Positions 1,005 through 32,076 of a stretch of DNA of 64,000 nucleotides are shown piece after piece (position 1 is the first letter of the stretch; the number at the start of each line of letters is the position of its first letter). The translations under genes were made by a program, and so were the position numbers. Below the pieces are notes generated by a model. That model was given only the letters and a program-made list of their open reading frames with translations, was not told the DNA's origin and did no database searches. The DNA comes from Desulfuromonadales bacterium (GTDB lineage Bacteria; Desulfobacterota; Desulfuromonadia; Desulfuromonadales; JAHYIW01): positions 40,425 through 104,424 of the forward strand of contig JARGFI010000002.1 of NCBI GenBank assembly GCA_029210745.1, in the 5' to 3' direction.

Positions 1005-1847
1005 ATGCTTGAAGCGATTTTAAGTCTGGGTGGTGTCGGCTTTTGCGCGGCGCTTGCGCTGGGTTTTGCAGCGCAGAAATTTGCTGTCGAAGTCGATGCG
1101 CGTGAGGCCGCGATTCTTGAAGTACTGCCCGGCGCCAACTGCGGTGCCTGCGGTTTTCCCGGCTGTGGTGGTTACGCCAGGGCGGTTGCTTCCGGAGCTG
1201 TCGCCCCGGAGCTGTGCCCCCCCGGTGGACCGGAGACGGTGGCCAGAATCGCCAGAATCATCGGCGTCGCGGCGATTGCGGTTGATCCGCAGGTGGCCGT
1301 GGTGATTTGTCAGGGGGATCAGCAGCGGGCGACCGAAAAATACCGTTACCTCGGTATCAGCGATTGCCGCGCCGCGCAGAAGCTCGCCGACGGGCCGAAG
1401 ACCTGCCCCGGCGGCTGCCTGGGGCTGGGGACCTGCGCGGCGATCTGCCCCTTCGGGGCGATTACCATGACCGATCAGCACTTGGCGGTGATCGATCGCG
1501 ACAAGTGCGTCGGTTGTCGTAAATGCGTTGAGCCCTGTCCGCGACAGGTGATCAAGATGACGCCCCGTTCGGTCTCCGTACACGTGCTTTGCAACAGCCA
1601 TGACAAAGGCGCGCTGGTCCGCCGCTATTGTCAGGTTGGGTGTATCGCTTGTCAGTTGTGTAAAAAAGCGGCACCGGAAGCTTACGTGATCGAAGATTTT
1701 CTGGCCCGTGTCGATTATCGCCATGCGGTCAAGCCGACCGCCGGTGTCGAAGTGGCCATTGATAAGTGTCCGACCCATTGTATCCGCGATGACAATCCGC
1801 CGCCAGCCCCCGTGCCTGACGAGAAACCTGCTCCGCAGGCGGCCTGA
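1005..1847 (+). CDS. rnfB: Rnf complex ferredoxin-type subunit RnfB
   Basis: Polyferredoxin subunit thought to take electrons from ferredoxin and pass them into Rnf. One N-terminal membrane helix (about residues 5-25) is followed by the RnfB Fe-S motif NCGACGFPGCGGYA near residue 50, then two ferredoxin motifs, CLGLGTCAAICP and CVGCRKCVEPCP, and a further Cys-rich stretch, CQVGCIACQLCKK, near residue 210. At 280 residues it is longer than the E. coli RsxB form and closer to anaerobe RnfB proteins with extra clusters. The tail is Pro/Ala-rich. It lies 26 bp after rnfA and 26 bp before rnfC. Confidence 0.95.
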   Translation: MLEAILSLGGVGFCAALALGFAAQKFAVEVDAREAAILEVLPGANCGACGFPGCGGYARAVASGAVAPELCPPGGPETVARIARIIGVAAIAVDPQVAVVICQGDQQRATEKYRYLGISDCRAAQKLADGPKTCPGGCLGLGTCAAICPFGAITMTDQHLAVIDRDKCVGCRKCVEPCPRQVIKMTPRSVSVHVLCNSHDKGALVRRYCQVGCIACQLCKKAAPEAYVIEDFLARVDYRHAVKPTAGVEVAIDKCPTHCIRDDNPPPAPVPDEKPAPQAA

Positions 1848-1873
1848 AGTACACTCGGGATGAAACTGAAGAG

Positions 1874-3205
1874 ATGAAGATAAAACGTTTTCCGGGCGGG
1901 CTGCATCCGCCGGAACATAAATCGACTGCTGCCAGGGCGATTGAACCATGTTCACTGCCGGACGAGCTGGTCATCCCGCTGGCGCAACATATCGGCGCCC
2001 CTGCCGAGCCGTGTGTGGTGATCGGTGACACCGTGGCCAAGGGGCAAGTCATCGCCCAGCCGCGGGGATTCGTTTCGGTGCCGATTCACGCGTCAAGTTC
2101 CGGGGTGGTGACGGCGGTCGAGCCGCGTTTGCACCCCATGGGGCGTCCGTTGCCGGCGATTGTGATCAAACCGGATGGCCGTGACGCCTGGCCCGACGGT
2201 CTTGAGGGCGGGATGAATCCGTTGCTGGTCGATCCGTTGACGCTGCCGCCGAGTCGCTTGCGCGATATGGTGCGCAATGCCGGGGTGGTCGGTCTGGGGG
2301 GGGCGACTTTTCCCACGCACGTTAAATTGTCGCCGCCGGGTGGAAAAAAGATCAACACCCTGATTCTCAACGGCGTTGAATGTGAACCGTACCTCACCGC
2401 CGACCACCGTCTGATGCTTGAGGAGCCGGAGCGGATCCTTGCCGGGATCGATATTCTGCGGCGGATTCTCGGGGTCGAACGGGTCTGTATCGGCATCGAG
2501 GAAAACAAGCCGGACGCGATAGCGGTGATGCGTGACGCCTGCGCGCAACGTGATATTGAGGTGATTGCGCTCAAGGTGATGTATCCGCAGGGGGCGGAAA
2601 AGCAATTGATCTTTGCGGTAACCGGGCGTCAGACACCTTCCGGCGGTTTGCCGATGGATGTCGGGGTGGTGGTACAGAATGTCGGCACTGCGGCGGCGGT
2701 GGCCGATGCTATTATCCACGGTCGTCCGCTGGTCGAGCGGATCGCGACGATTACCGGCCCGGCGCTGGTTGAACCGAAGAATCTGCGCATCCGCATCGGT
2801 ACTTCGTTACGTCATCTGGTTGCCGAGTGCGGGGGACTGCGTGAAGAGGTAGTCAAGGTGATCATGGGAGGGCCGATGATGGGGCACACCCAGTTGTCGC
2901 TTGATGTACCCGCCATCCGGGGAACTTCCGGGCTGTTGCTGCTCGACAAAAACGCGGTAGCGACGCGGTCGGAAGGCCCCTGTATCCGTTGTGCGCGCTG
3001 TGTAAGTGTCTGTCCGGCACGCTTGCTGCCGACGACGATCTCGGCCTACGCCCGCCGCGACATGATTGCCGAGGCGGAACGGTTCAATGCCCTCGACTGC
3101 ATTGAGTGTGGCTGCTGTGCCTATACTTGTCCTGCCCGCATCCCGCTGGTGCAGTCGATTCGTCAGGTCAAAGGGGCGATTCTGGCCAAACGGAGATTGT
3201 CCTGA
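1874..3205 (+). CDS. rnfC: Rnf complex NADH-binding subunit RnfC
   Basis: Peripheral subunit carrying FMN and the NAD(H) site, related to NuoF. The 443 residues start with the RnfC barrel region (FPGGLHPPEHK), have a glycine loop GLGGATFPTHVKL near residue 140 as in the NuoF nucleotide-binding fold, and end with two [4Fe-4S] motifs, CIRCARCVSVCP and CIECGCCAYTCP. It lacks the long Ala/Lys-rich C-terminal extension of E. coli RsxC, giving the short form seen in anaerobes. The stop is followed after one base by the rnfD start codon. Confidence 0.95.
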   Translation: MKIKRFPGGLHPPEHKSTAARAIEPCSLPDELVIPLAQHIGAPAEPCVVIGDTVAKGQVIAQPRGFVSVPIHASSSGVVTAVEPRLHPMGRPLPAIVIKPDGRDAWPDGLEGGMNPLLVDPLTLPPSRLRDMVRNAGVVGLGGATFPTHVKLSPPGGKKINTLILNGVECEPYLTADHRLMLEEPERILAGIDILRRILGVERVCIGIEENKPDAIAVMRDACAQRDIEVIALKVMYPQGAEKQLIFAVTGRQTPSGGLPMDVGVVVQNVGTAAAVADAIIHGRPLVERIATITGPALVEPKNLRIRIGTSLRHLVAECGGLREEVVKVIMGGPMMGHTQLSLDVPAIRGTSGLLLLDKNAVATRSEGPCIRCARCVSVCPARLLPTTISAYARRDMIAEAERFNALDCIECGCCAYTCPARIPLVQSIRQVKGAILAKRRLS

Positions 3206-7085: not shown

Positions 7086-8264
7086 ATGGCAAACACCGAA
7101 ACTATGACCATCAACATGGGGCCGCAGCACCCGTCAACGCACGGGGTTCTGCGCCTGATTCTTGAACTCGACGGCGAGACTGTTGTCAAGGCAGTTCCGC
7201 ATATCGGCTTCCTTCACCGGGGGATCGAAAAGTTGTCGGAGCATCGCACCTATCACCAGGTGTTGCCCCTGACAGACCGTCTCGATTATCTGGCGCCGAT
7301 GCATAACAATCTGGGTTATGTCCTGGCTGTTGAAAAGTTGCTGGGGATTACCGATCAGATTCCTGAGCGCGCCAACGTGGTCCGCGTCATCATGGCCGAA
7401 CTGACCCGGATCAAGAGTCACCTGGTCTGGCTGGCTTGTCACGCCCTCGACATCGGTGCGATGACAGTGTTCATCTATTGCTTCCGCGAGCGGGAGCATA
7501 TCATGGATATCTATGAGAAGCTCTCCGGGGCGCGGATGACGTCCAACTATTTCCGCGTCGGCGGACTCTCCGCCGATCTCCCCGATGGGCTGGAACAGGA
7601 AATACGTGATTTCATCGATTCCATGCCGGGACATATCGCCACCTATGAAGGGCTGTTGACCGGGAACCGAATCTGGCAAAAACGGATTCAGGGCGTCGGA
7701 ACAATCAGTGCCGAGGATGCTATTGATCTCGGTGTCACCGGACCGTCTTTACGCGGCTCCGGCGTTGACTGGGACCTGCGCCGCGACAACCCTTACAGCG
7801 GTTACGAAGACTACGATTTCAATGTCATTGTGGACGAGGGTTGCGACACATGGGCACGCTACCATGTGCGCCTCAAAGAGATGTACGAATCGTGCAAGAT
7901 CATTCTGCAGGGGCTTGACAAGCTGAAACCCGGGCCGATTCTGGCCGATTGTCCGAAGATCTGCCTGCCGCCGAAAAAAGACGTGGTGAACACCATTGAA
8001 GGGCTGATTCACCATTTCAAGATTATCAGTGAGGGGTTTAAGCCGGAAGTCGGTGAAATCTATCAGGGGGTTGAAAACCCTAAGGGTGAAGTCGGTTTCT
8101 ATTTGGTTTCCGACGGCAGCCCCCGCCCCTACCGGATGAAGATTCGCCCGGCCTCATTTATCAATTTGCAGGCGTTGCCGAAGATGTGTGAAGGATCATT
8201 GATCGCTGATGTCGTCGCCGTTATCGGTACGCTCGACATCGTTCTTGGCGAGATTGATCGTTAA
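7086..8264 (+). CDS. nuoD: NADH-quinone oxidoreductase subunit D
   Basis: 49 kDa-type subunit that forms the quinone-binding pocket with NuoB; related to the large subunit of [NiFe] hydrogenases but lacking the Ni ligands. The N terminus MTINMGPQHPSTHGVLRL carries the conserved quinone-site histidines, followed by HRGIEKL and the ERANVVRVIMAELTRI run. The C terminus contains GSPRPYRMKIRPASF and ends in the usual VLGEIDR. 392 residues matches stand-alone NuoD. Confidence 0.96.
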   Translation: MANTETMTINMGPQHPSTHGVLRLILELDGETVVKAVPHIGFLHRGIEKLSEHRTYHQVLPLTDRLDYLAPMHNNLGYVLAVEKLLGITDQIPERANVVRVIMAELTRIKSHLVWLACHALDIGAMTVFIYCFREREHIMDIYEKLSGARMTSNYFRVGGLSADLPDGLEQEIRDFIDSMPGHIATYEGLLTGNRIWQKRIQGVGTISAEDAIDLGVTGPSLRGSGVDWDLRRDNPYSGYEDYDFNVIVDEGCDTWARYHVRLKEMYESCKIILQGLDKLKPGPILADCPKICLPPKKDVVNTIEGLIHHFKIISEGFKPEVGEIYQGVENPKGEVGFYLVSDGSPRPYRMKIRPASFINLQALPKMCEGSLIADVVAVIGTLDIVLGEIDR

Positions 8265-23086: not shown

Positions 23087-23689
23087 ATGAAAAATATTGT
23101 CGTCGCGATAACCGGAGCCTCCGGAACAATTTATGGCCTCAGACTGGTCGAGGAATTATTACGCAGCAAGTGTCGTGTCGGGCTAATCCTCAGCAACGCC
23201 GGGCGTGAAGTTCTCAACTACGAAACCGGTCTGAACTGGCCAATGCCATTTGAGCAACTCAAGGCGGCAGTGAATGACCACTTCGCGGCCTCTGAACAGT
23301 TGGCCATCTACGCCGAAAACGACCTTTTCTCCCCATTGGCAAGCGGTTCTTCGTGCGCCGCTGCCATGGTAGTGATTCCTTGTTCGATGGGAACACTGGG
23401 ACGGATTGCCGGGGGGCTGAGCAACAATCTGATCGAACGGGCCGCAGACGTGGCTCTCAAGGAACGACGCGAGCTGCTTCTGGTTCCTCGCGAGACCCCC
23501 TTCAATCACATCCATCTGGAGAATTTACTCAGATTGAGTCGTGCCGGGGCACAGATCATTCCTGCCATGCCCGGTTTTTATCATCGACCGCAGAATATCG
23601 ATGATCTGGTCAACTTTGTGGTCGGTAAAGTCCTCGATGCTCTGGGTGTCGAACATCAACTTTTTCTGCGCTGGGGGGCAGCAAAATAG
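23087..23689 (+). CDS. ubiX: UbiX-family flavin prenyltransferase
   Basis: Makes prenylated FMN, the cofactor of the UbiD protein encoded two genes upstream. The 200 residues begin with the Rossmann-like AITGASGTIYGLRLVEEL and end with the conserved PRETPFNHIHLENLLRLSRA and AGAQIIPAMPGFYHRP. Gene order ubiD-ubiA-ubiX fits a single menaquinone unit. The stop codon TAG shares its G with the GTG start of mqnE. Confidence 0.92.
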   Translation: MKNIVVAITGASGTIYGLRLVEELLRSKCRVGLILSNAGREVLNYETGLNWPMPFEQLKAAVNDHFAASEQLAIYAENDLFSPLASGSSCAAAMVVIPCSMGTLGRIAGGLSNNLIERAADVALKERRELLLVPRETPFNHIHLENLLRLSRAGAQIIPAMPGFYHRPQNIDDLVNFVVGKVLDALGVEHQLFLRWGAAK

Positions 23690-24777
23690 TGGACTCGATG
23701 ACCAGCTTGCTGGATACGGTGCGAATCAAAATTGACGCAGGTGCGCGGATTTCCGACGCTGAAGCGCTGGCACTCTTTGCGTGCAACGACCTGTTGGCGC
23801 TCGGAACGTTGGCGGCACAGGCAAATCGGCGGAAGAATAGCGACAAGGTTTATTTTAACGTCAATCGTCATATCAATTACACCAACCTGTGCGTCAATCG
23901 CTGCACCTTTTGTGCATTCAGCAAGGAGGTTGAGGACGAGGGGTGTTACACCTTGACCTTAAACGACATCCTTGCCAAAGCTGCCGAAGCGCAAAGGGCG
24001 GGGGCGACCGAGTTACATATGGTTGGCGGATTGCATCCGGCGTTACCCTTCGATTTTTATCTGGAAATGCTGGCGTCGATCAAGGCCGACAACCCGGGCC
24101 TGCACCTCAAGGCGTTTACCGCCGTAGAAATTGACTACTTTGCTCAATTGACCGGACAACCGGTGGCACACGTAATCCTGGAGCTGAAAGAAGCCGGACT
24201 GGAATCGCTGCCGGGGGGTGGGGCCGAGATTTTTGCGCCGCAGGTGCGGAATAAAATCTGTCCGGAAAAAATCAGTGGTGAGCGGTGGCTTGAAGTGATC
24301 GAAACCGTGCATCGCTGCGGGCTGAAAACCAACGCCACGATGCTTTTCGGTCATCTCGAAACCCCTGCCGACCGGGTTGATCATCTCGCCCGGTTACGTC
24401 AGTTGCAGGATCTCACCGGCGGATTTCAGGCCTTTATCCCGCTGGCTTTTCAGCCGGACAATACCCGCGTGCCCGGTGCCACGGGGGTCGGCGGGGTCGA
24501 TGCCCTGAAAACCCTGGCAATCAGTCGCATCTACCTCGACAACTTTCAGCATATCAAGGCCTACTGGGTGATGCTCGGTCTGAAGATTGCGCAAGTGTCA
24601 CTGTGCTTCGGTGTTAACGATCTGGACGGCACGGTGGTCGAAGAAAAGATCGGCCACGACGCCGGAGCCGATTCGCCGCAGCAACTCGACAAAGAACAAC
24701 TGTGCGCCCTGATCCGCAAGGCGGGCAAGGTGCCGGTGGAGCGGGATACGTTGTATCGGGAAATACAGGAGTATTGA
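23689..24777 (+). CDS. mqnE: Aminofutalosine synthase MqnE (radical SAM)
   Basis: Radical SAM enzyme joining SAM-derived adenosyl to 3-enolpyruvyl-benzoate in the futalosine pathway to menaquinone. 362 residues with the cluster motif CVNRCTFCAFSKE near residue 67 after NRHINYTNL, and AGLESLPGGGAEIF in the barrel, as in the MqnE/MqnC/CofH group. I call MqnE rather than MqnC because the later gene at 31009 fits MqnC better. Start is the GTG overlapping the ubiX stop. The next gene starts one base after this stop. Confidence 0.87.
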   Translation: MDSMTSLLDTVRIKIDAGARISDAEALALFACNDLLALGTLAAQANRRKNSDKVYFNVNRHINYTNLCVNRCTFCAFSKEVEDEGCYTLTLNDILAKAAEAQRAGATELHMVGGLHPALPFDFYLEMLASIKADNPGLHLKAFTAVEIDYFAQLTGQPVAHVILELKEAGLESLPGGGAEIFAPQVRNKICPEKISGERWLEVIETVHRCGLKTNATMLFGHLETPADRVDHLARLRQLQDLTGGFQAFIPLAFQPDNTRVPGATGVGGVDALKTLAISRIYLDNFQHIKAYWVMLGLKIAQVSLCFGVNDLDGTVVEEKIGHDAGADSPQQLDKEQLCALIRKAGKVPVERDTLYREIQEY

Positions 24778-24778
24778 T

Positions 24779-27001
24779 ATGAATAATTTCGATGATGACT
24801 TGGGCATGGTGCCTTATCCGCTGATTTTCCCAGAAGCCGAAGAAAAAATGTTAGGGATTTCACTGCCCCGAAAAGTCGGCAAATTGAAAGCTGGTGAGTA
24901 TCACTTCATTGAGGCCTATTGTGTTGAGGAGGGTTGTGATTGCCGCCGGACATCGATTTTTGTCGTTAATGCCAAGGGAAAAATGGTCGCCACGATCGAC
25001 TTTGGATTCGATCCTGACCACCCGTTGTCCGGGCCGTTTCTCAATGAGTATCAGAAACAACTGGCCGGGGCCGAGGAGTTGCTGGAAATCTTCGTTGACG
25101 AGATCAACAACAACCCCGATTGGCTGAAGAGGATGTATAAACAGTATAAACAGGTACGCAAGGAAGTTGATGGTAAAACATATCGCGGCAAAGCTTTTCC
25201 GAAACCGGGATTGGTGCCGCGTTCGCACAAACTTCCCCCTGCCGACGAAGACCTTTGTGCGGATTTTAAACAGCTGCTAGAAGCTGCGGTGAAATCCCCG
25301 CCGATTTCCAATAAACACTTGAAGAGGAGTAAAGGGGCGCTAGGTCAACTGCTCACCGAACCCCGCCCTGTGGCGAAAAATATGACGGAATGGGTTGAGT
25401 TTTTCCTGCAGAATCAGCAGGATTCATTCAGCGGGCACGATTTCAGGAAGACAGAGCTGCAACGCTTTTTGCTTGCATATGACCGGGCTGAGGATGAACT
25501 GGCCCAACTTATCGTTGAGCTGTACATGCGCAAGGATGAAGCGCGACTGGATGAGGCGCTGACTGTCTTAACCGATGTGTGTGATATCCTGCGCACGGAC
25601 CTGGAACGACGTCGTCCCGATGCTATGCGCCGGATTGAAAACTGGCAAGCGGCCCTCGCTCGACATGTCTACGCCGAGAGTGTCGACATGGAACTGGGAG
25701 CCATGGTCACCCAGGTGTTGCTGGACACCCGGATCGAGATTTTGCCGCTGTTGCACCAGGCCAACAGCCAGCGAATGCTGGCAAAATTAGACCATGATCC
25801 GGAATTCGCAGCGGACCCCGAGCAGGGCATGCGTGAGTTGCTCAGTGCGCTTGAAGAGCTGGAAAGCGGCAGTCCTTTTGAACTGTTCGACGCCGTGCTG
25901 CAAATGATGTTGGTTGGTGACAGCGATGTGCAGGTGATACTGTGCCGGCATATGCTTGAAGTAGAACATCCGGTGATTCGGGAAATGGCGGCCCTGATGC
26001 TGTTTCATCCTGTCGCCGAGGTGCGGAGCGGCGTGGCCCGACAGTTGGCGGAGGTTGAGGGGCGCTTCCTGACCCCGGAAACTTTGCGCCGCCTGATTGT
26101 CGCTCGCAACTGGTTTCCCGAGGAGTTGCGCAAGCAGATTGACCAGACCGTGACCAACGCCCGCCGCGCGCGCGTGGAGTGTGCGCCGCTGCCGCCACGG
26201 CGTGGCACGGTTGTCTATGCGTCCGGTGTTGATGGCGCCATGGCACAGACCTTTCAGGTGATGATTCCCGAAGGAAAAGGCTTTCTGTGCTGTGCAATCA
26301 TGCCTAAACGGGGAGCCGGGGTCGCCGATGCTTTTTTTATCCATTTGGCAAACAAACGTGAGCGCAACAATTTTGTCGAGATGCTGAAGGCAGAAACCGG
26401 AGCCCACGAATCGACGTCAGACTATCTTGACAGACGGATCTGTCAGGCGCTGGCCGATGGCGCCGAACATGGGAAGGTTCCCAGCCACTGGCTGGCCGCG
26501 ATCGCCGAACAACTCGGCTGTGACCAGTGGAAAGCGGCGCCGCTCGACGTGATGGCTGAACTGAAAAGTTTACGCAACGCGCTGGAAAGTTGCGGGGCGC
26601 GTTATGTGACCGAGCGTTACCGGGAACAGGCGTTCATTGCCTCGGCATCCTGGCTTCTGCAACAAACGTTTGCCTATTCCTGGTTTGAGGATGATGTTGA
26701 CGTTGACAAGATTGTGCAAAAGACGCAAGGCAGGAAGAGGCAGATCGACCCGGAGCGATGTATTGACACAATCTTGCATAAAATTCTTCAGCCGCGTCGT
26801 AAGCAATGGCTGGAACGTTTGGTGTTGACAACCCGGTGGTTAAAGTCGATCAAAAAGCCGCCGGTCCCCTGGGAGCAAATGTTTCTCGTGACCGAGGCGC
26901 TGGCCGATGAGACGGTGGCTATCGAAGATATTCCGCTGATGGACGTCATCGCCGCCGAGAGTTTCGCGGCGTATCTTGGGCGGCGGGAGGAGGGGCGATA
27001 A
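24779..27001 (+). CDS. Large uncharacterised protein with a Cys-x4-Cys-x-Cys N-terminal motif
   Basis: 740 residues, not recognised as a whole. The first 120 residues contain AYCVEEGCDCRRTSIFV followed by a beta-rich ATIDFGFDP, resembling a small domain found beside SEC-C metal-binding proteins. Residues 200-470 are Leu-rich helix pairs (for example HPVIREMAALMLFHPVAEVR) suggesting HEAT-like repeats. The rest is mixed. No membrane helix or signal peptide. Start ATG 24779 is one base after the mqnE stop, with AGGAG ahead, so it is translated with mqnE. Its role is unknown; lying ahead of a KilA-N and restriction-like gene it may belong to that module. Confidence 0.75.
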   Translation: MNNFDDDLGMVPYPLIFPEAEEKMLGISLPRKVGKLKAGEYHFIEAYCVEEGCDCRRTSIFVVNAKGKMVATIDFGFDPDHPLSGPFLNEYQKQLAGAEELLEIFVDEINNNPDWLKRMYKQYKQVRKEVDGKTYRGKAFPKPGLVPRSHKLPPADEDLCADFKQLLEAAVKSPPISNKHLKRSKGALGQLLTEPRPVAKNMTEWVEFFLQNQQDSFSGHDFRKTELQRFLLAYDRAEDELAQLIVELYMRKDEARLDEALTVLTDVCDILRTDLERRRPDAMRRIENWQAALARHVYAESVDMELGAMVTQVLLDTRIEILPLLHQANSQRMLAKLDHDPEFAADPEQGMRELLSALEELESGSPFELFDAVLQMMLVGDSDVQVILCRHMLEVEHPVIREMAALMLFHPVAEVRSGVARQLAEVEGRFLTPETLRRLIVARNWFPEELRKQIDQTVTNARRARVECAPLPPRRGTVVYASGVDGAMAQTFQVMIPEGKGFLCCAIMPKRGAGVADAFFIHLANKRERNNFVEMLKAETGAHESTSDYLDRRICQALADGAEHGKVPSHWLAAIAEQLGCDQWKAAPLDVMAELKSLRNALESCGARYVTERYREQAFIASASWLLQQTFAYSWFEDDVDVDKIVQKTQGRKRQIDPERCIDTILHKILQPRRKQWLERLVLTTRWLKSIKKPPVPWEQMFLVTEALADETVAIEDIPLMDVIAAESFAAYLGRREEGR

Positions 27002-27003
27002 GC

Positions 27004-27393
27004 ATGCTGCGACTGAGCGAGCAGGAAAAACAAGAGATTATCGGTTATTTGGATTCGAATAAAGAATTGCCGGAAAAGTACCGCTTTTTACTCTTCGACG
27101 ACAAGCGCGAGGTGGAGCTGGTCTGGAACGGCAAGCGCGAGATCATCCGCCTTCGCTCTGAAGAAGCTTCGGCAGTCGAGTCCGGTCCGGGTATTGACGA
27201 AGAATGGCAGGAGCAGTGGACCGGCGATTACGTCTTCGAGAACGAGTGGCAATCCTTCCGCACCAAGAAGGACCGTTCTCTGGAGCTGATCAGCGTCGCC
27301 CACGAATGCCCGCCGGGCCGGCGCAAGATCGCGGTGAAGGTGGTGGATATCTTCGGCAACGACACTATGACCATTGTCGAGGTTTCGGTATGA
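27004..27393 (+). CDS. Small protein resembling the ends of a DNA methyltransferase, possible remnant
   Basis: 129 residues. The N-terminal part (LPEKYRFLLFDDKREVELVW then NGK) recalls the entry segment of Mod-type site-specific DNA methyltransferases; the C-terminal part (NEWQSFRTKKDR and KIAVKVVDIFGNDTM) recalls their tail. The catalytic core with a DPPY-like motif and the SAM loop is absent. This could be an internally deleted methyltransferase gene, or a small natural protein sharing those segments; the comparison is from memory. It starts two bases after the preceding stop with GGAGGAGGGG ahead, so it is likely expressed. Confidence 0.55.
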   Translation: MLRLSEQEKQEIIGYLDSNKELPEKYRFLLFDDKREVELVWNGKREIIRLRSEEASAVESGPGIDEEWQEQWTGDYVFENEWQSFRTKKDRSLELISVAHECPPGRRKIAVKVVDIFGNDTMTIVEVSV

Positions 27394-27424: not shown

Positions 27425-27435
27425 AGCAGTTTAAG

Positions 27436-27453
27436 CCCGGCGAATTCGACGGG
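27436..27453. promoter_or_regulatory. Imperfect palindrome with CGAATTCG core
   Basis: CCCGGCGAATTCGACGGG is an 18-bp palindrome with one mismatched pair. Its CGAATTCG core lies at 27441-27448, exactly 30 bp from the same core in the perfect palindrome downstream, about three turns of the helix. The pair looks like a two-site operator. Confidence 0.45.
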
Positions 27454-27462
27454 TTTTAAAAC

Positions 27463-27486
27463 AAATATGGCGAATTCGCCATATTT
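27463..27486. promoter_or_regulatory. Perfect 24-bp palindrome upstream of the KilA-N gene
   Basis: AAATATGGCGAA at 27463-27474 is followed at once by its exact reverse complement, giving a perfect 24-bp palindrome centred on GAATTC. It ends 16 bp before the KilA-N start codon and just before the GGAG ribosome site. With no loop it is a poor RNA hairpin but an ideal site for a symmetric dimer, so an autoregulatory operator for the KilA-N protein is the simplest reading. An alternative ATG lies within it (27467). Confidence 0.6.
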
Positions 27487-27502
27487 AAATTGGAGCAAAT
27501 GC

Positions 27503-28330
27503 ATGGGCAAAAACAACGAAATTATCGTTCTCGAAGAGACGGTTCGTGTTCAGCGCATTAAACAGAATGATTACATTTCCCTGACCGATATCGCCAAGTT
27601 CAAGAATTCAGATGATCCTCGTTTTGTTATCCAGAACTGGATGCGAACACGTTTCTCCGTCGAGTTTCTGGGTATTTGGGAGTTGCTGAACAATCCGGAT
27701 TTTAACCGTGTGGAATTCGACACGGTTAAAAATGCTTCGGGAAGCAATGCGTTCGTCATGACGCCCACCAAGTGGATAGAACTTACCCGTGCCATTGGCA
27801 TCGTTTCGAAAGCTGGTCGCTATGGCGGGACCTACGCGCACAAGGACATTGCCTTCGAGTTCGCTTCGTGGGTGTCGGTTGAGTTCAAGCTTTACTTGAT
27901 CAAGGAGTTCCAGCGGCTCAAGGAAGCTGAACAGGCGCAGCTCGGCTGGGATATCAAACGCAATCTGGCGAAGATCAACTATCGTATCCATACCGATGCC
28001 ATCAAGGAGAATTTGCTTCCGCCGGCACTGAACGCGAAACAAGTCAGCCTGACTTACGCCAGTGAGGCCGATGTGCTGAACATGGCATTGTTCGGCATGA
28101 CCGCCAAACATTGGCGAGATGCAAATCCGGGGGAAAAGGGGAATATCCGCGACGAGGCGAATGTCGCCCAGCTCATCTGTCTCTCCAATCTTGAGAATCT
28201 GAATGCGCTCTTCATCAGTGAAGGATTGCCGCAGGCCGAGCGGCTACAAAAGCTCAACTCCATCGCAATCAGTCAGATGCGATTGTTGACCGAGGATCTG
28301 GGCGTAAAAAAACTTGGAGAGAAGAAGTAA
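27503..28330 (+). CDS. KilA-N domain protein
   Basis: 275 residues. The KilA-N DNA-binding domain spans roughly residues 10-150: NDYISLTDIAKFKNSDDPRF near the start, then FVMTPTKWIELTRAIGIVS and GTYAHKDIAFEFASWVS. The C-terminal part (YASEADVLNMALFGMTAKHW) is typical of free-standing bacterial KilA-N proteins related to RhuM. KilA-N proteins are common in phages and mobile elements. Start 27503 chosen for GGAG seven bases ahead; the frame is open further upstream but reads through the palindrome. The stop TAA overlaps the next gene's ATG, so the two are translationally coupled. Confidence 0.85.
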   Translation: MGKNNEIIVLEETVRVQRIKQNDYISLTDIAKFKNSDDPRFVIQNWMRTRFSVEFLGIWELLNNPDFNRVEFDTVKNASGSNAFVMTPTKWIELTRAIGIVSKAGRYGGTYAHKDIAFEFASWVSVEFKLYLIKEFQRLKEAEQAQLGWDIKRNLAKINYRIHTDAIKENLLPPALNAKQVSLTYASEADVLNMALFGMTAKHWRDANPGEKGNIRDEANVAQLICLSNLENLNALFISEGLPQAERLQKLNSIAISQMRLLTEDLGVKKLGEKK

Positions 28331-31018
28331 TGGCCCTGCATCCTGATTTCCCCAACTCCCCTCACGCGATTCTCAATCCCGAGGTTCGCTGGTTCCCGGC
28401 TGACGAGGCGCTACGCGAAACGACCATGGACAAGCTGATGCCGCCACTGGTGTCACAACTGCGGCGCAAGGTGAAGGAGTTTCGCGACGGGGGTTACGTC
28501 GGTGCGACCGAGACCAGCAAGAGCCTGCTGAACTGGTGGTTCAGAGAGCCGCATCTACAGGAGCGGGCTGACGGGACGACCGAGGAGTTTCGCTACTTCT
28601 TCGCCCAGCGCGAAACGCTGGAGACGATTGTCTATCTCTACGACGTGGTCGGTGCCAAAGATAAGTTCGACCTGATGCGCTTTGACGGCAGCGGGGTGGT
28701 GTCGGCCGGGATGTTCGACGAAAGCTGGCGGCGCTACGTGGTGAAGATGGCCACCGGCAGCGGCAAGACCAAGGTGCTGAGTCTGGCGCTGGCCTGGAGC
28801 TTCTTCCATAAACTCTATGAGTCGGACTCGACACTGTCGCGCAACTTTCTGGTGATTGCACCCAACATCATTGTCCTTGACCGCATCTACAAAGACTTTC
28901 AGGGTCTGCGCATTTTCTTTGATGATCCGGTGATCCCCGATAACGGTTTCGACGGCCGCAACTGGCGGGACGATTTTCAGCTGACTCTGCACGTGCAGGA
29001 CGAGGTGCGTGTCACGCGCCCGGTCGGCAATATTTTTCTGACCAACATTCACCGTGTCTATTGCGGGGAGGAGATTCCACCCACACCGGACGACGACAAC
29101 AGCATGGATTACTTCCTCGGCAAGCGGCCGAGCGGCGCAACCACCGACTCAAAAGTCGACCTGGGAATGATCGTGCGCGACATCGACGAACTGATGGTGC
29201 TCAACGACGAGGCGCACCATATCCATGATGCCAAGCTGGCGTGGTTCCAGTCGATTCAGGATATCCACAATCGCCTGCTGCAGAAGGGGGATGCGCTCTC
29301 CCTGCAACTCGACGTAACCGCCACCCCGAAACACAACAATGGCGCCATCTTCGTGCAAACCGTCTCCGATTACCCACTGGTTGAGGCGATCTGGCAGAAC
29401 GTGGTCAAGCATCCGGTCCTCCCCGATGCTCCCAGCCGCGCCAAGCTTACCGAACGCCAAAGCGCCAAATACACCGAGAAGTACGCCGACTACCTCGATC
29501 TTGGGGTGATCGAATGGCGCAAGGCCTACGACGAACATCAGAAGATGGGGAAGAAGGCGATCCTCTTCGTCATGACCGACGACACGCGCAACTGTGACGA
29601 CGTGGCCGAATATCTGGAGGGGCATTATCCTGACCTGAAGGGGGCGGTGTTGGTGATCCACACCAAAAGTAACGGCGAGATTTCGGAAGCCGCCTCGGGC
29701 AAGGCAAAGGAAGTGCTTGAAGCGCTGCGCAAGCAGGCCAACGATATTGATTCCATGGGAAAGTCCGTACAAGGCCATCGTCTCGGTGCTGATGCTCAAG
29801 GAGGGCTGGGACGTGCGCAACGTGACAACCATCGTCGGCTTGCGCGCCTATGCCGCCAACAGCAATATCCTTCCCGAGCAGACCTTAGGCCGTGGACTGC
29901 GCAAAATGTACCCCGGTGACGTGGAGGAGTATGTCAGCGTGGTCGGTACAAACGCCTTCATGGAGTTCGTCGAGTCGATTCAGGCCGAAGGGGTTGAACT
30001 GGAACGCAAAGCGATGGGGCAGGGGACCGGGGCTAAGACGCCACTGGTGATCGAGGTCGATACTGAAAATGACACGAAGGACCTCGATAAGCTTGATATC
30101 TTCATCCCGGTCCTTTCGCCGCGTATCTATCGCGAGTATAAAAATCTGGCCGATCTGGACACAGGATCGATACCCTTTCAGGCATTGCTCTACCGGCAAT
30201 TCAGTGAAGCAGAACAGCGGGAAATCGTTTTTAAGGACATCACCAGCGGTGTCATTACGCACACCACGATTCTTGATAGTGCCGGGGTGGCCGACTATCG
30301 CAGCGTCATTGGCTACTTTGCCCAGACGATCATGAAGGAGTTGCGACTCGTCAGTGGTTACGATGTGCTCTACGGCAAGGTCAAGACGTTCGTGCGGGAT
30401 GCACTGTTCGGATCGATGATTGAGCTTGAATCGCCCAATACTTTGCGCAATCTTTCGGAGCTGGCCGCCACAAAGACGGTAATTGAATCCTTCAAGAAGG
30501 CGATCAACGAACTGACCGTTCGCACCAAGGGTGACGCACAGATCCGCGACACCATCAAGCTTCGCGAGACCCGCCCCTTTGTCGTCAAGGATCAAGGCTA
30601 TCTGATGGCGAAGAAGAGCGTTTTTAATCGCGTTATCGGTGACAGCCCCTTTGAGCTGTGCTTCGCCAGTTTTTTGGAAGATTGCGACGACGTGGTTTCT
30701 TACGCCAAAAACTATCTGGCGGTCCATTTCAAACTGGATTACGTTAAGGCCAATGGCGATATGTCCAACTACTATCCCGATTTTCTGGTTAAAATGACAG
30801 ATGGCCGGATTGTGGTGGTCGAGACCAAGGGTCAGGTGGACGAGGATGTCCCGCCGAAAATGGCCCGGTTGTGTCAGTGGTGTGAGGATCTCAATCGTTT
30901 ACAATCGACTGTGAAGTACGCTTTTGTCTTTGTGGACGATGAGGGCTTCAAAAAATACGGCCCCAAAAACTTTCGTCAGGTTTTGGAAGGATTTAAGGCA
31001 TATCAGGAATGCTGCTGA
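28330..31018 (+). pseudogene. Type III restriction-like helicase-nuclease, broken by a +1 frameshift
   Basis: Without one extra base this would be an 895-residue protein. Helicase motifs: Walker A MATGSGKT near residue 140, Walker B/DEAH in VLNDEAHHIHD near residue 297, LDVTATPK, and motif VI EQTLGRGLRKMYP. A C-terminal nuclease core follows: YPDFLVKMTDGRIVVVETKG, a PD-(D/E)xK pattern. The A at 29755 shifts frame: before it the frame reads NDIDS, after it WESPYKAIVSVLMLKEGWDV, which join smoothly if that A is dropped. Upstream frame ends at 29919; downstream frame is open from before 29717 to 31018. It resembles res subunits of type III systems, but no intact methyltransferase gene is nearby. 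Sequencing error is an alternative. Confidence 0.82.
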
Positions 31019-32076
31019 CCGATTTGCAAAAAAAAGTTGAGGATGGAGGCATTCTCGACCGCGCCGAGGCGCTCTGGCTGCTGACCGAAGCTGATCTGCT
31101 TCAAGTTGGTAAATTGGCTGACGCGATCCGCCGCAAGAAGCATCCGCATAACCGGGTGACGTTTGTGGTTGACCGCAATGTCAATTACACCAACGTCTGC
31201 CAGTCGCAGTGTAAATTTTGTGCGTTCTATCGCGACGCCGACGCTGCGGATGCCTATGTGCTGTCCCACGAAGAAATTTTTCACAAAATCCAGGAACTGG
31301 TTGATCATGGCGGCACCCAACTGTTGATGCAGGGAGGGCTGCATCCTGAGCTGAAGATCGGTTGGTTCGAGGAGTTGTTTCGCGAGATTCGACAGCGCTT
31401 TCCGCAGGTGCAGATTCATTCCCTTTCGCCCGCCGAGGTGATTCATGTCGCCCGTCTGTCGGAGCTGTCGATGCCGGAGTGCCTGCGGCGCTTGCAGGCT
31501 GCCGGCCTCGCTTCGGTGCCGGGGGGCGGTGCGGAGGTGTTGGTCGATGCGGTGCGCAAGGAGATTTCACCGAACAAAATCGGCTGGCGCGACTGGGCCG
31601 CCGTGATGGAAGAAGCGCACCGCTTGGGGATGCGTACCACCGCGACGATGATGTTCGGTTCTAAAGAGCAGCCAGAGGATATTGTCGAGCATCTCTTCCG
31701 GGTGCGCGAGATTCAGTCGCGCAGTGGTGGTTTTACCGCCTTTATTCCGTGGACTTTTCAGCCGGACAATACTGAGCTGGGGGGCGAAACGGCGAGCGGG
31801 GTGGACTATCTCAAGGTCCTGGCATTGTCACGGATCGTGCTCGATAATATCGACAATATTCAGGCGAGCTGGGTGACACAAGGGGCGATGATGGCGCAGG
31901 TAGCCCTCTTTTTTGGTGCCAACGACCTGGGGGGGACGATGCTCGAAGAAAACGTCGTTGCTGCCGCCGGGGTGGAGTTTCGCATGACTCAAGACGAGGT
32001 TGTCGAGGTGGCGCGCGGAGCGGGGTTTACTCCGGCGAAAAGGAGTACCGCTTACGCGATTCTGGAAGAGTATTAA
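31009..32076 (+). CDS. mqnC: Cyclic dehypoxanthinyl futalosine synthase MqnC (radical SAM)
   Basis: Radical SAM enzyme that cyclises dehypoxanthine futalosine, the step after MqnB in the futalosine menaquinone route. 355 residues; cluster motif CQSQCKFCAFYRD near residue 64 after DRNVNYTNV, then GTQLLMQGGLHPELKI and AGLASVPGGGAEVLVDAVR, all fitting MqnC. The ATG lies 10 bp inside the end of the restriction-like gene, with AAGG nine bases ahead, so it now depends on translation coming through the island. Confidence 0.88.
   Translation: MLLTDLQKKVEDGGILDRAEALWLLTEADLLQVGKLADAIRRKKHPHNRVTFVVDRNVNYTNVCQSQCKFCAFYRDADAADAYVLSHEEIFHKIQELVDHGGTQLLMQGGLHPELKIGWFEELFREIRQRFPQVQIHSLSPAEVIHVARLSELSMPECLRRLQAAGLASVPGGGAEVLVDAVRKEISPNKIGWRDWAAVMEEAHRLGMRTTATMMFGSKEQPEDIVEHLFRVREIQSRSGGFTAFIPWTFQPDNTELGGETASGVDYLKVLALSRIVLDNIDNIQASWVTQGAMMAQVALFFGANDLGGTMLEENVVAAAGVEFRMTQDEVVEVARGAGFTPAKRSTAYAILEEY

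Follow-up and report, generated by a model that had tools for sequence, protein, structure and literature searches.

The 64-kb stretch of the Desulfuromonadales bacterium genome analysed here (contig JARGFI010000002.1), called the window and within which all coordinates are numbered, contains a KilA-N gene of the PADLOC family PDC-S22, and inside the KilA-N-coding region of this gene lies a 32-base-pair (bp) palindrome that, judging from covariation among its relatives, is very probably the cognate DNA site of the encoded protein. As an overall explanation it is probable, although by a much smaller measure, that the internal palindrome is bound by the protein of its own gene and labels the DNA on which it lies as self. 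The palindrome emerged from a repeat scan as a third and stronger palindrome centred on GAATTC, and was absent from an earlier note on this DNA, which dealt with two palindromes located upstream of the gene. The parts of the gene that are central to this analysis are as follows.

27503 to 28330, plus strand: KilA-N gene encoding 275 amino acids, PADLOC PDC-S22, assigned from Pfam and PADLOC profile matches
27617 to 27646, plus strand: predicted recognition helix PRFVIQNWMR, codons 39-48, whose residues 39, 40, 41, 44, 45 and 48 covary with bases of the site
27700 to 27731, no strand: internal 32-bp palindrome TTTTAACCGTGTGGAATTCGACACGGTTAAAA, 15 of 16 pairs matched, KilA-N codons 66-77, the predicted cognate site of the encoded protein
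27935 to 28327, plus strand: codons 145-275, the C-terminal part of the KilA-N protein, which does not covary with the site and is retained when alleles swap the KilA-N domain

The encoded protein matches the Pfam KilA-N domain (PF04383) with an E-value of 2.2e-20 and 72.9 bits, as compared to a gathering cut-off of 23.8, and the PDC-S22 profile PDLC04962 with an E-value of 3.5e-131 over residues 1-272, that is, over the whole protein. The PDC-S22 profile is also matched by all 82 of the 82 aligned relatives. Sequence searches of the PDB returned no relative.

Conservation of the internal palindrome

The presence of a palindrome played no part in collecting the relatives, which came from three sources: genomes of the same class and order, a set of 84,980 species genomes, and viral contigs. 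The resulting sample represents the best-scoring part of a larger family. A palindrome centred on GAATTC or a close variant is present at the aligned codons in 134 of 136 distinct sequences, and the genes that carry it span many bacterial phyla as well as archaea. The family site can be written as TTTTAA-N6-CGAATTCG-N6-TTAAAA, in which the outer TTTTAA and TTAAAA blocks and the central CGAATTCG are near-constant and the six bases between the constant blocks vary widely, with 46 different left heptamers among 134 genes and with the two arms changing jointly. The site in the window has CCGTGTC as its right half, and its left half carries G for C at position -4.

On average 13.7 of 15 pairs are matched in the observed genes, as compared to 8.9 after synonymous codon resampling, which disfavours constraint by the protein alone. 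At the variable positions, 6.3 of 7 pairs are retained, as compared to 3.3 when arms are permuted between genes, and the next-best centre elsewhere in the gene reaches only 6.7 of 15 pairs. As pairing falls upon both synonymous resampling and arm permutation and no other centre in the gene is comparable, the constraint acts on DNA. An RNA hairpin is disfavoured by the central AATT, which would form its loop and is among the most conserved parts of the site, and by mismatches that are not mainly G-U; for the same reasons the DNA duplex is the likely form of the palindrome. Truncated KilA-N copies in L027, L023, L030 and L209 stop shortly past the palindrome codons, suggesting possible recombination near the site.

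Correspondence between a predicted helix and the variable bases

When the palindrome codons are excluded, the distance between arms correlates with the distance between KilA-N domains (0.615) and hardly with that between C-terminal parts (0.079). The strongest segment comprises residues 36-48 (0.655), whereas residues 49-65 and 78-87, which are nearest to the palindrome on the DNA, show weaker correlations of 0.33 and 0.36, so that linkage alone is insufficient to account for the association. In a nearest-neighbour prediction that excluded partners above 70% identity, 86% of the arm bases are recovered from residues 36-48, as compared to 38-72% for other windows of residues and 44% for random partners, and C-terminal residues predict the arm bases no better than random partners.

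Among 78 sequences, thinned to 75% identity, the best pairs are ordered: residue 48 with base -4, residue 45 with base -5, residues 41 and 44 with bases -6 and -7, residue 40 with base -8 and residue 39 with base -9. At residue 45, N is found with T, D with G and K with C at base -5, and at residue 48, R is found with C, and Q and most S with G, at base -4. The covariation thus defines a predicted recognition code, in which helix residues from 48 to 39 correspond in order to the bases from 4 to 10 positions from the centre, and the window protein, with PRFVIQNWMR, fits its own internal CCGTGT site under this code. Residues 39-46 are helical in an AlphaFold2 monomer model, and the predicted KilA-N domain has its best structural matches in Mbp1 (1bm8, Z 7.8) and PCG2 (4ux5, Z 7.2), with Foldseek E-values above 0.001. 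Helix B of the APSES protein PCG2 inserts into the major groove (PMC4333399), and from the order of the structural elements in the model, the helix of residues 39-48 may correspond to this helix B.

New records, lost sites and exchange of cassettes

The code was applied to an out-of-sample set of 16 plasmid and phage records, none of which had been used to derive it. Five genes had an aligned site and agreed with a training gene at no fewer than 7 of 9 key residues; for these, 7, 7, 7, 7 and 4 of 7 bases were predicted correctly, and the mean for all 12 scorable genes was 5.4 of 7. Two genes that have lost the internal site carry palindromes upstream instead. In L197 (motif PADVIKNW) there are two upstream ACTGGTC palindromes, which belong to the class predicted for its motif, and in L309 (motif NDLIRNW) a single ACCCGTC palindrome stands upstream, differing at one base from the nearest predicted half-site; L197 has a stop codon later in frame and may be a pseudogene. 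Since the peptides at the former internal sites of these two genes no longer resemble that of the family, the peptide encoded at the internal site would not be essential to the protein.

Alleles were also found (for example L157/L173 and L075/L101) that are about 99% identical in their C-terminal parts and have close leaders, and yet diverge over approximately codons 30-135 and carry different palindromes. In such pairs the KilA-N domain and its site, which share the same 300 bp, move as one cassette. Differences in class among several KilA-N genes of one genome were set aside as evidence, because the classes are so numerous that such differences are expected by chance.

Palindromes upstream of the gene

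Two further palindromes precede the KilA-N gene of the window.

27429 to 27460, no strand: upstream palindrome A, GTTTAAGCCCGGCGAATTCGACGGGTTTTAAA, imperfect with 12 of 15 pairs matched, right half ACCCGTC, of the DDLIRNW specificity class
27459 to 27490, no strand: upstream palindrome B, AAACAAATATGGCGAATTCGCCATATTTAAAT, which contains the perfect 24 bp, half-site ATATGGC, of the FFISDW specificity class

The earlier note had considered the 24-bp palindrome real and improbable by chance, and this is borne out, as AAATATGGCGAATTCGCCATATTT at 27463-27486 is an exact palindrome and the sole perfect one in the window with arms longer than 8 bp, while perfect palindromes with arms of at least 12 are expected 0.01 times per Markov-shuffled 64-kb sequence. 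The centres of the two upstream CGAATTCG sites, at 27445 and 27475, are 30 bp apart; the imperfect second site is thus where it had been described, although the spacing of exactly three helical turns attributed to the pair corresponds rather to about 2.9 turns. The view that the palindrome serves a symmetric protein is consistent with it being the kind of site that KilA-N proteins are predicted to read, and its ATATGGC half fits the FFISDW class, whose half-sites are TTATGGC and its relatives. A proposed enrichment of its 16-bp core near KilA-N genes did not hold: the core has one copy in the whole host genome and none in other genomes in an exact search of 195 genomes, since the arms differ between specificity classes, and a blastn search with a 32-mer against E. 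coli genomes and plasmids gave no useful match. The ATG within the palindrome (27467) does share the reading frame of the KilA-N gene, but the ATG at 27503 is directly preceded by a GGAG motif, and the MANSPY extension that the earlier start would add did not emerge as conserved in the family.

Strong upstream palindromes are uncommon in the family, being present in 10 of 162 KilA-N genes, or in 17 of 164 under a looser rule, and in none of those 17 genes does an upstream site share the class of the gene's own internal site. A tightly spaced array like that of the window occurs in L058, with three upstream sites of different classes. A relative with an 89% identical KilA-N protein has kept the internal site and lacks both upstream sites. 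GAATTC, the EcoRI recognition sequence, is central in all the window palindromes (27441-27718), and an extra GAATTC is present at 27604-27609. The palindrome showed no evident hallmark of transposition, and no terminal repeats or target-site duplications were noticed in the flanks that were read, in which no systematic search for these was made.

Free-standing sites

Sites matching the family pattern are also found apart from any KilA-N gene. The pattern with a spacer of 6 matches 67 viral contigs, and control patterns with spacers of 5 or 7 match none. In the loci fetched with this pattern, 32 of 88 sites lack KilA-N homology within 400 bp on each side when the palindrome is masked and a sensitive search is used, and 42 of 68 half-sites are heptamers already known from internal sites, a set that covers 0.4% of heptamers. 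Some free-standing sites are located inside other genes, and some lie upstream of genes that we take to be dinD-like, with one adjoining what is presumably a tRNA gene. In L224, L226 and L232, a hybrid palindrome near position 1501, with TTCCCTC and ACCCCTC halves, stands just upstream of an open reading frame, presumably dinD, and can be read as its N-terminal extension. A perfect palindrome at 9857 of L261 lies within a phage open reading frame in a reading frame other than that of KilA-N, and the phage contig L242 carries three free-standing sites of different classes at 7372, 8140 and 8482.

Genomic neighbourhood

The KilA-N gene of the window stands between the following two genes.

27004 to 27393, plus strand: remnant of a type III modification gene (mod) with a large in-frame internal deletion, from comparison with the Mod protein of a relative
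28330 to 31018, plus strand: Res (BPTD_3080-like) gene in two overlapping frames, frameshifted as compared to an intact relative, from profile and relative comparison

In the 129-residue product of the mod remnant, residues 1-44 correspond to residues 12-55 and residues 37-129 to residues 625-707 of the relative's Mod; this remnant is absent, as are the upstream palindromes, in the relative with the 89% identical KilA-N protein. The products of the two res frames (28330-29919 and 29717-31018) match one intact relative of 899 amino acids in succession, and the split is either a frameshift or an assembly error. The 740-residue protein encoded at 24779-27001 has no Pfam or NCBIfam match, and its relative in G130 also directly precedes a KilA-N gene. 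The KilA-N/res island is flanked by radical-SAM-like genes at 23689-24777 and 31009-32076, which we presume to resemble enzymes of the menaquinone futalosine pathway, and it may have inserted between them.

Relatives elsewhere are carried by plasmids, satellite phages and temperate phages, and in Staphylococcus phage EW, a member of the family is found with the repressor region on one side and the integrase on the other. In L059, a GIY-YIG nuclease domain is found inside an open reading frame (1511-3127) with type I specificity (HsdS) domains.

Comparison with known systems

The closest parallel is BstA (PMC8585504, Owen et al. 2021), a KilA-N-like protein of prophages through which infections by other phages are aborted. 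Its carrier is protected by aba, a short element that overlaps bstA, works at the level of DNA and is specific to the BstA variant with which it occurs (PMC8585504). In both systems a KilA-N-like N-terminal domain is joined to a separate C-terminal domain, the gene is carried by prophages, and a short cis element, cognate to the protein in BstA and cognate-looking in PDC-S22, overlaps the protein's own gene and differs between variants. The aba element is different in being 63 bp long, with terminal CCCGCC direct repeats and a position at the start codon, whereas the PDC-S22 site is a 32-bp palindrome within the region coding for the DNA-binding domain, with a helix-base code that can be read. 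Defence and self-immunity are demonstrated for BstA and are proposed by inference for the PDC-S22 family. No palindrome comparable to the PDC-S22 site was found in the BTP1 bstA region, no homology is detectable between the family and BTP1 BstA (BLASTP E-value 0.19, hhalign probability 0.7%), and the PADLOC BstA profile is unmatched by the PDC-S22 family.

The predicted fold of the KilA-N domain resembles that of the APSES/KilA-N transcription factors Mbp1 and PCG2. PCG2 reads ACGCGT mainly via its wing (PMC4333399), whereas in PDC-S22 it is helix residues 39-48 that the variable bases follow, and the site is part of the protein's own gene. The PADLOC entry for PDC-S22 is a profile of the protein only, and in the literature no report of a palindrome, site, mechanism or anti-phage function for this family was found. 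Among published papers, with preprints outside the scope, on KilA-N together with palindromes, operators or self-immunity, BstA is the sole close precedent. In type I HsdS proteins, cassette-like swapping of the DNA-reading target-recognition domain leaves the remainder of the protein unchanged. PDC-S22 is alike in the exchange of a DNA-reading domain as a cassette, and is different in that the recognised DNA travels inside the cassette; no homology is claimed.

Proposed mechanism and alternative explanations

Taking together the conserved palindrome, the covariation and the code, the cassette exchange and the free-standing sites, all obtained by sequence comparison, each PDC-S22 gene product would bind the palindrome in the part of its own gene that codes for the KilA-N domain. 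The site would be read by two protein copies arranged symmetrically, presumably as a dimer, with helix 39-48 contacting the variable bases so that residue 48 is nearest to the centre and residue 39 outermost. Domain and site would be exchanged jointly between alleles that keep the same C-terminal part. In the window, the gene's own site would be that at 27700-27731, and both upstream palindromes would represent two other specificity classes. The site would mark the carrier DNA as self, such that a KilA-N protein acting in exclusion or abortive infection spares its own element, and extra sites of other classes, whether they precede KilA-N genes or stand alone in phage genomes, would protect against other KilA-N proteins. 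A logic like that of BstA would account for the tie between each site and its reader, for diversification through joint exchange, for arrays of non-self classes and for the sites captured by phages. By analogy with BstA, the self-immunity role of the site is put at even odds.

Several observations weigh against this reading. The code loses strength for divergent motifs, and only two cassette exchanges are clearly independent. The replacement sites in L197 and L309, close upstream of the start codon, fit an operator equally well, and some free-standing sites may be relics of KilA-N genes. PDC-S22 is a candidate defence family only, and the self-immunity role leans on these free-standing sites and on the analogy with BstA, despite the lack of sequence homology.

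The upstream palindromes could instead be functionless relics left at this locus by KilA-N genes that preceded the present one, which is conceivable although improbable as a complete account and may explain part of these sites. Palindrome-carrying KilA-N fragments are common, the upstream palindrome of G159 sits in such a fragment, and upon direct reading both upstream sites of the window give KilA-N-like peptides in one frame. Nevertheless, the upstream sites of the window are without a recognisable KilA-N flank, as are the 32 pattern sites that remain flank-free even by sensitive search, and the tight arrays of different classes in L058 and in the window do not agree with relics; moreover, this explanation covers the upstream sites and not the internal one.

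The main rival for the internal site is autoregulation, in which the palindrome is a cognate operator for feedback, acting as a roadblock in the gene or as an upstream repressor site and possibly limiting transcription into the downstream restriction genes. It is consistent with a predicted winged-helix fold resembling that of transcription factors, with the PHROG family label of transcription regulation, with the cognate sites of L197 and L309 being within about 100 bp upstream of the gene, and with the fact that the KilA-N genes of several relatives are flanked by mod and res or adjoin hsdM, hsdS or hsdR. We consider it unlikely, because it leaves unexplained both the sites on phage contigs without KilA-N flanks, some of them within other coding sequences, and the upstream arrays of non-self classes.

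From the symmetry of the 24-bp palindrome and its position just upstream of the gene, the earlier note proposed that it serves as operator for the KilA-N protein of the window; this is highly improbable and finds no support here: upstream sites are rare and non-matching, and the code predicts a protein of another class as their reader. As the upstream and internal classes differ and the 89% identical relative is without upstream sites, this palindrome would be a KilA-N-type site, but most likely not the operator of the window protein. Even less credible is an origin of the internal palindrome as a by-product of protein constraint, of a messenger RNA hairpin or of self-correcting quasi-palindrome mutation, for although E71-F72 is strongly conserved and template switching can correct quasi-palindromes, neither a residue-base code with a distant helix nor replacement sites upstream would be expected under any of them.

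Significance

Little is known of the DNA read by prokaryotic KilA-N domains (PMC4862756). For PDC-S22, the analysis yields a predicted recognition sequence and a code that relates individual residues to bases, together with dozens of natural variants, which make specificity directly testable. Should self-recognition prove true, it would account for the way in which a mobile defence gene spares its carrier, and would suggest that the sites on phages serve as counter-defence. The unexplained pairing of BstA with aba also becomes easier to attack, since the PDC-S22 site is short, symmetric and predictable. PDC-S22 may be a widespread exclusion system, a proposal whose odds we put a little short of even, in which each gene holds the 32-bp palindromic password that its own helix would read, specificity is diversified as passwords are swapped together with the domain, and phages and other elements collect passwords of other classes as cross-immunity.
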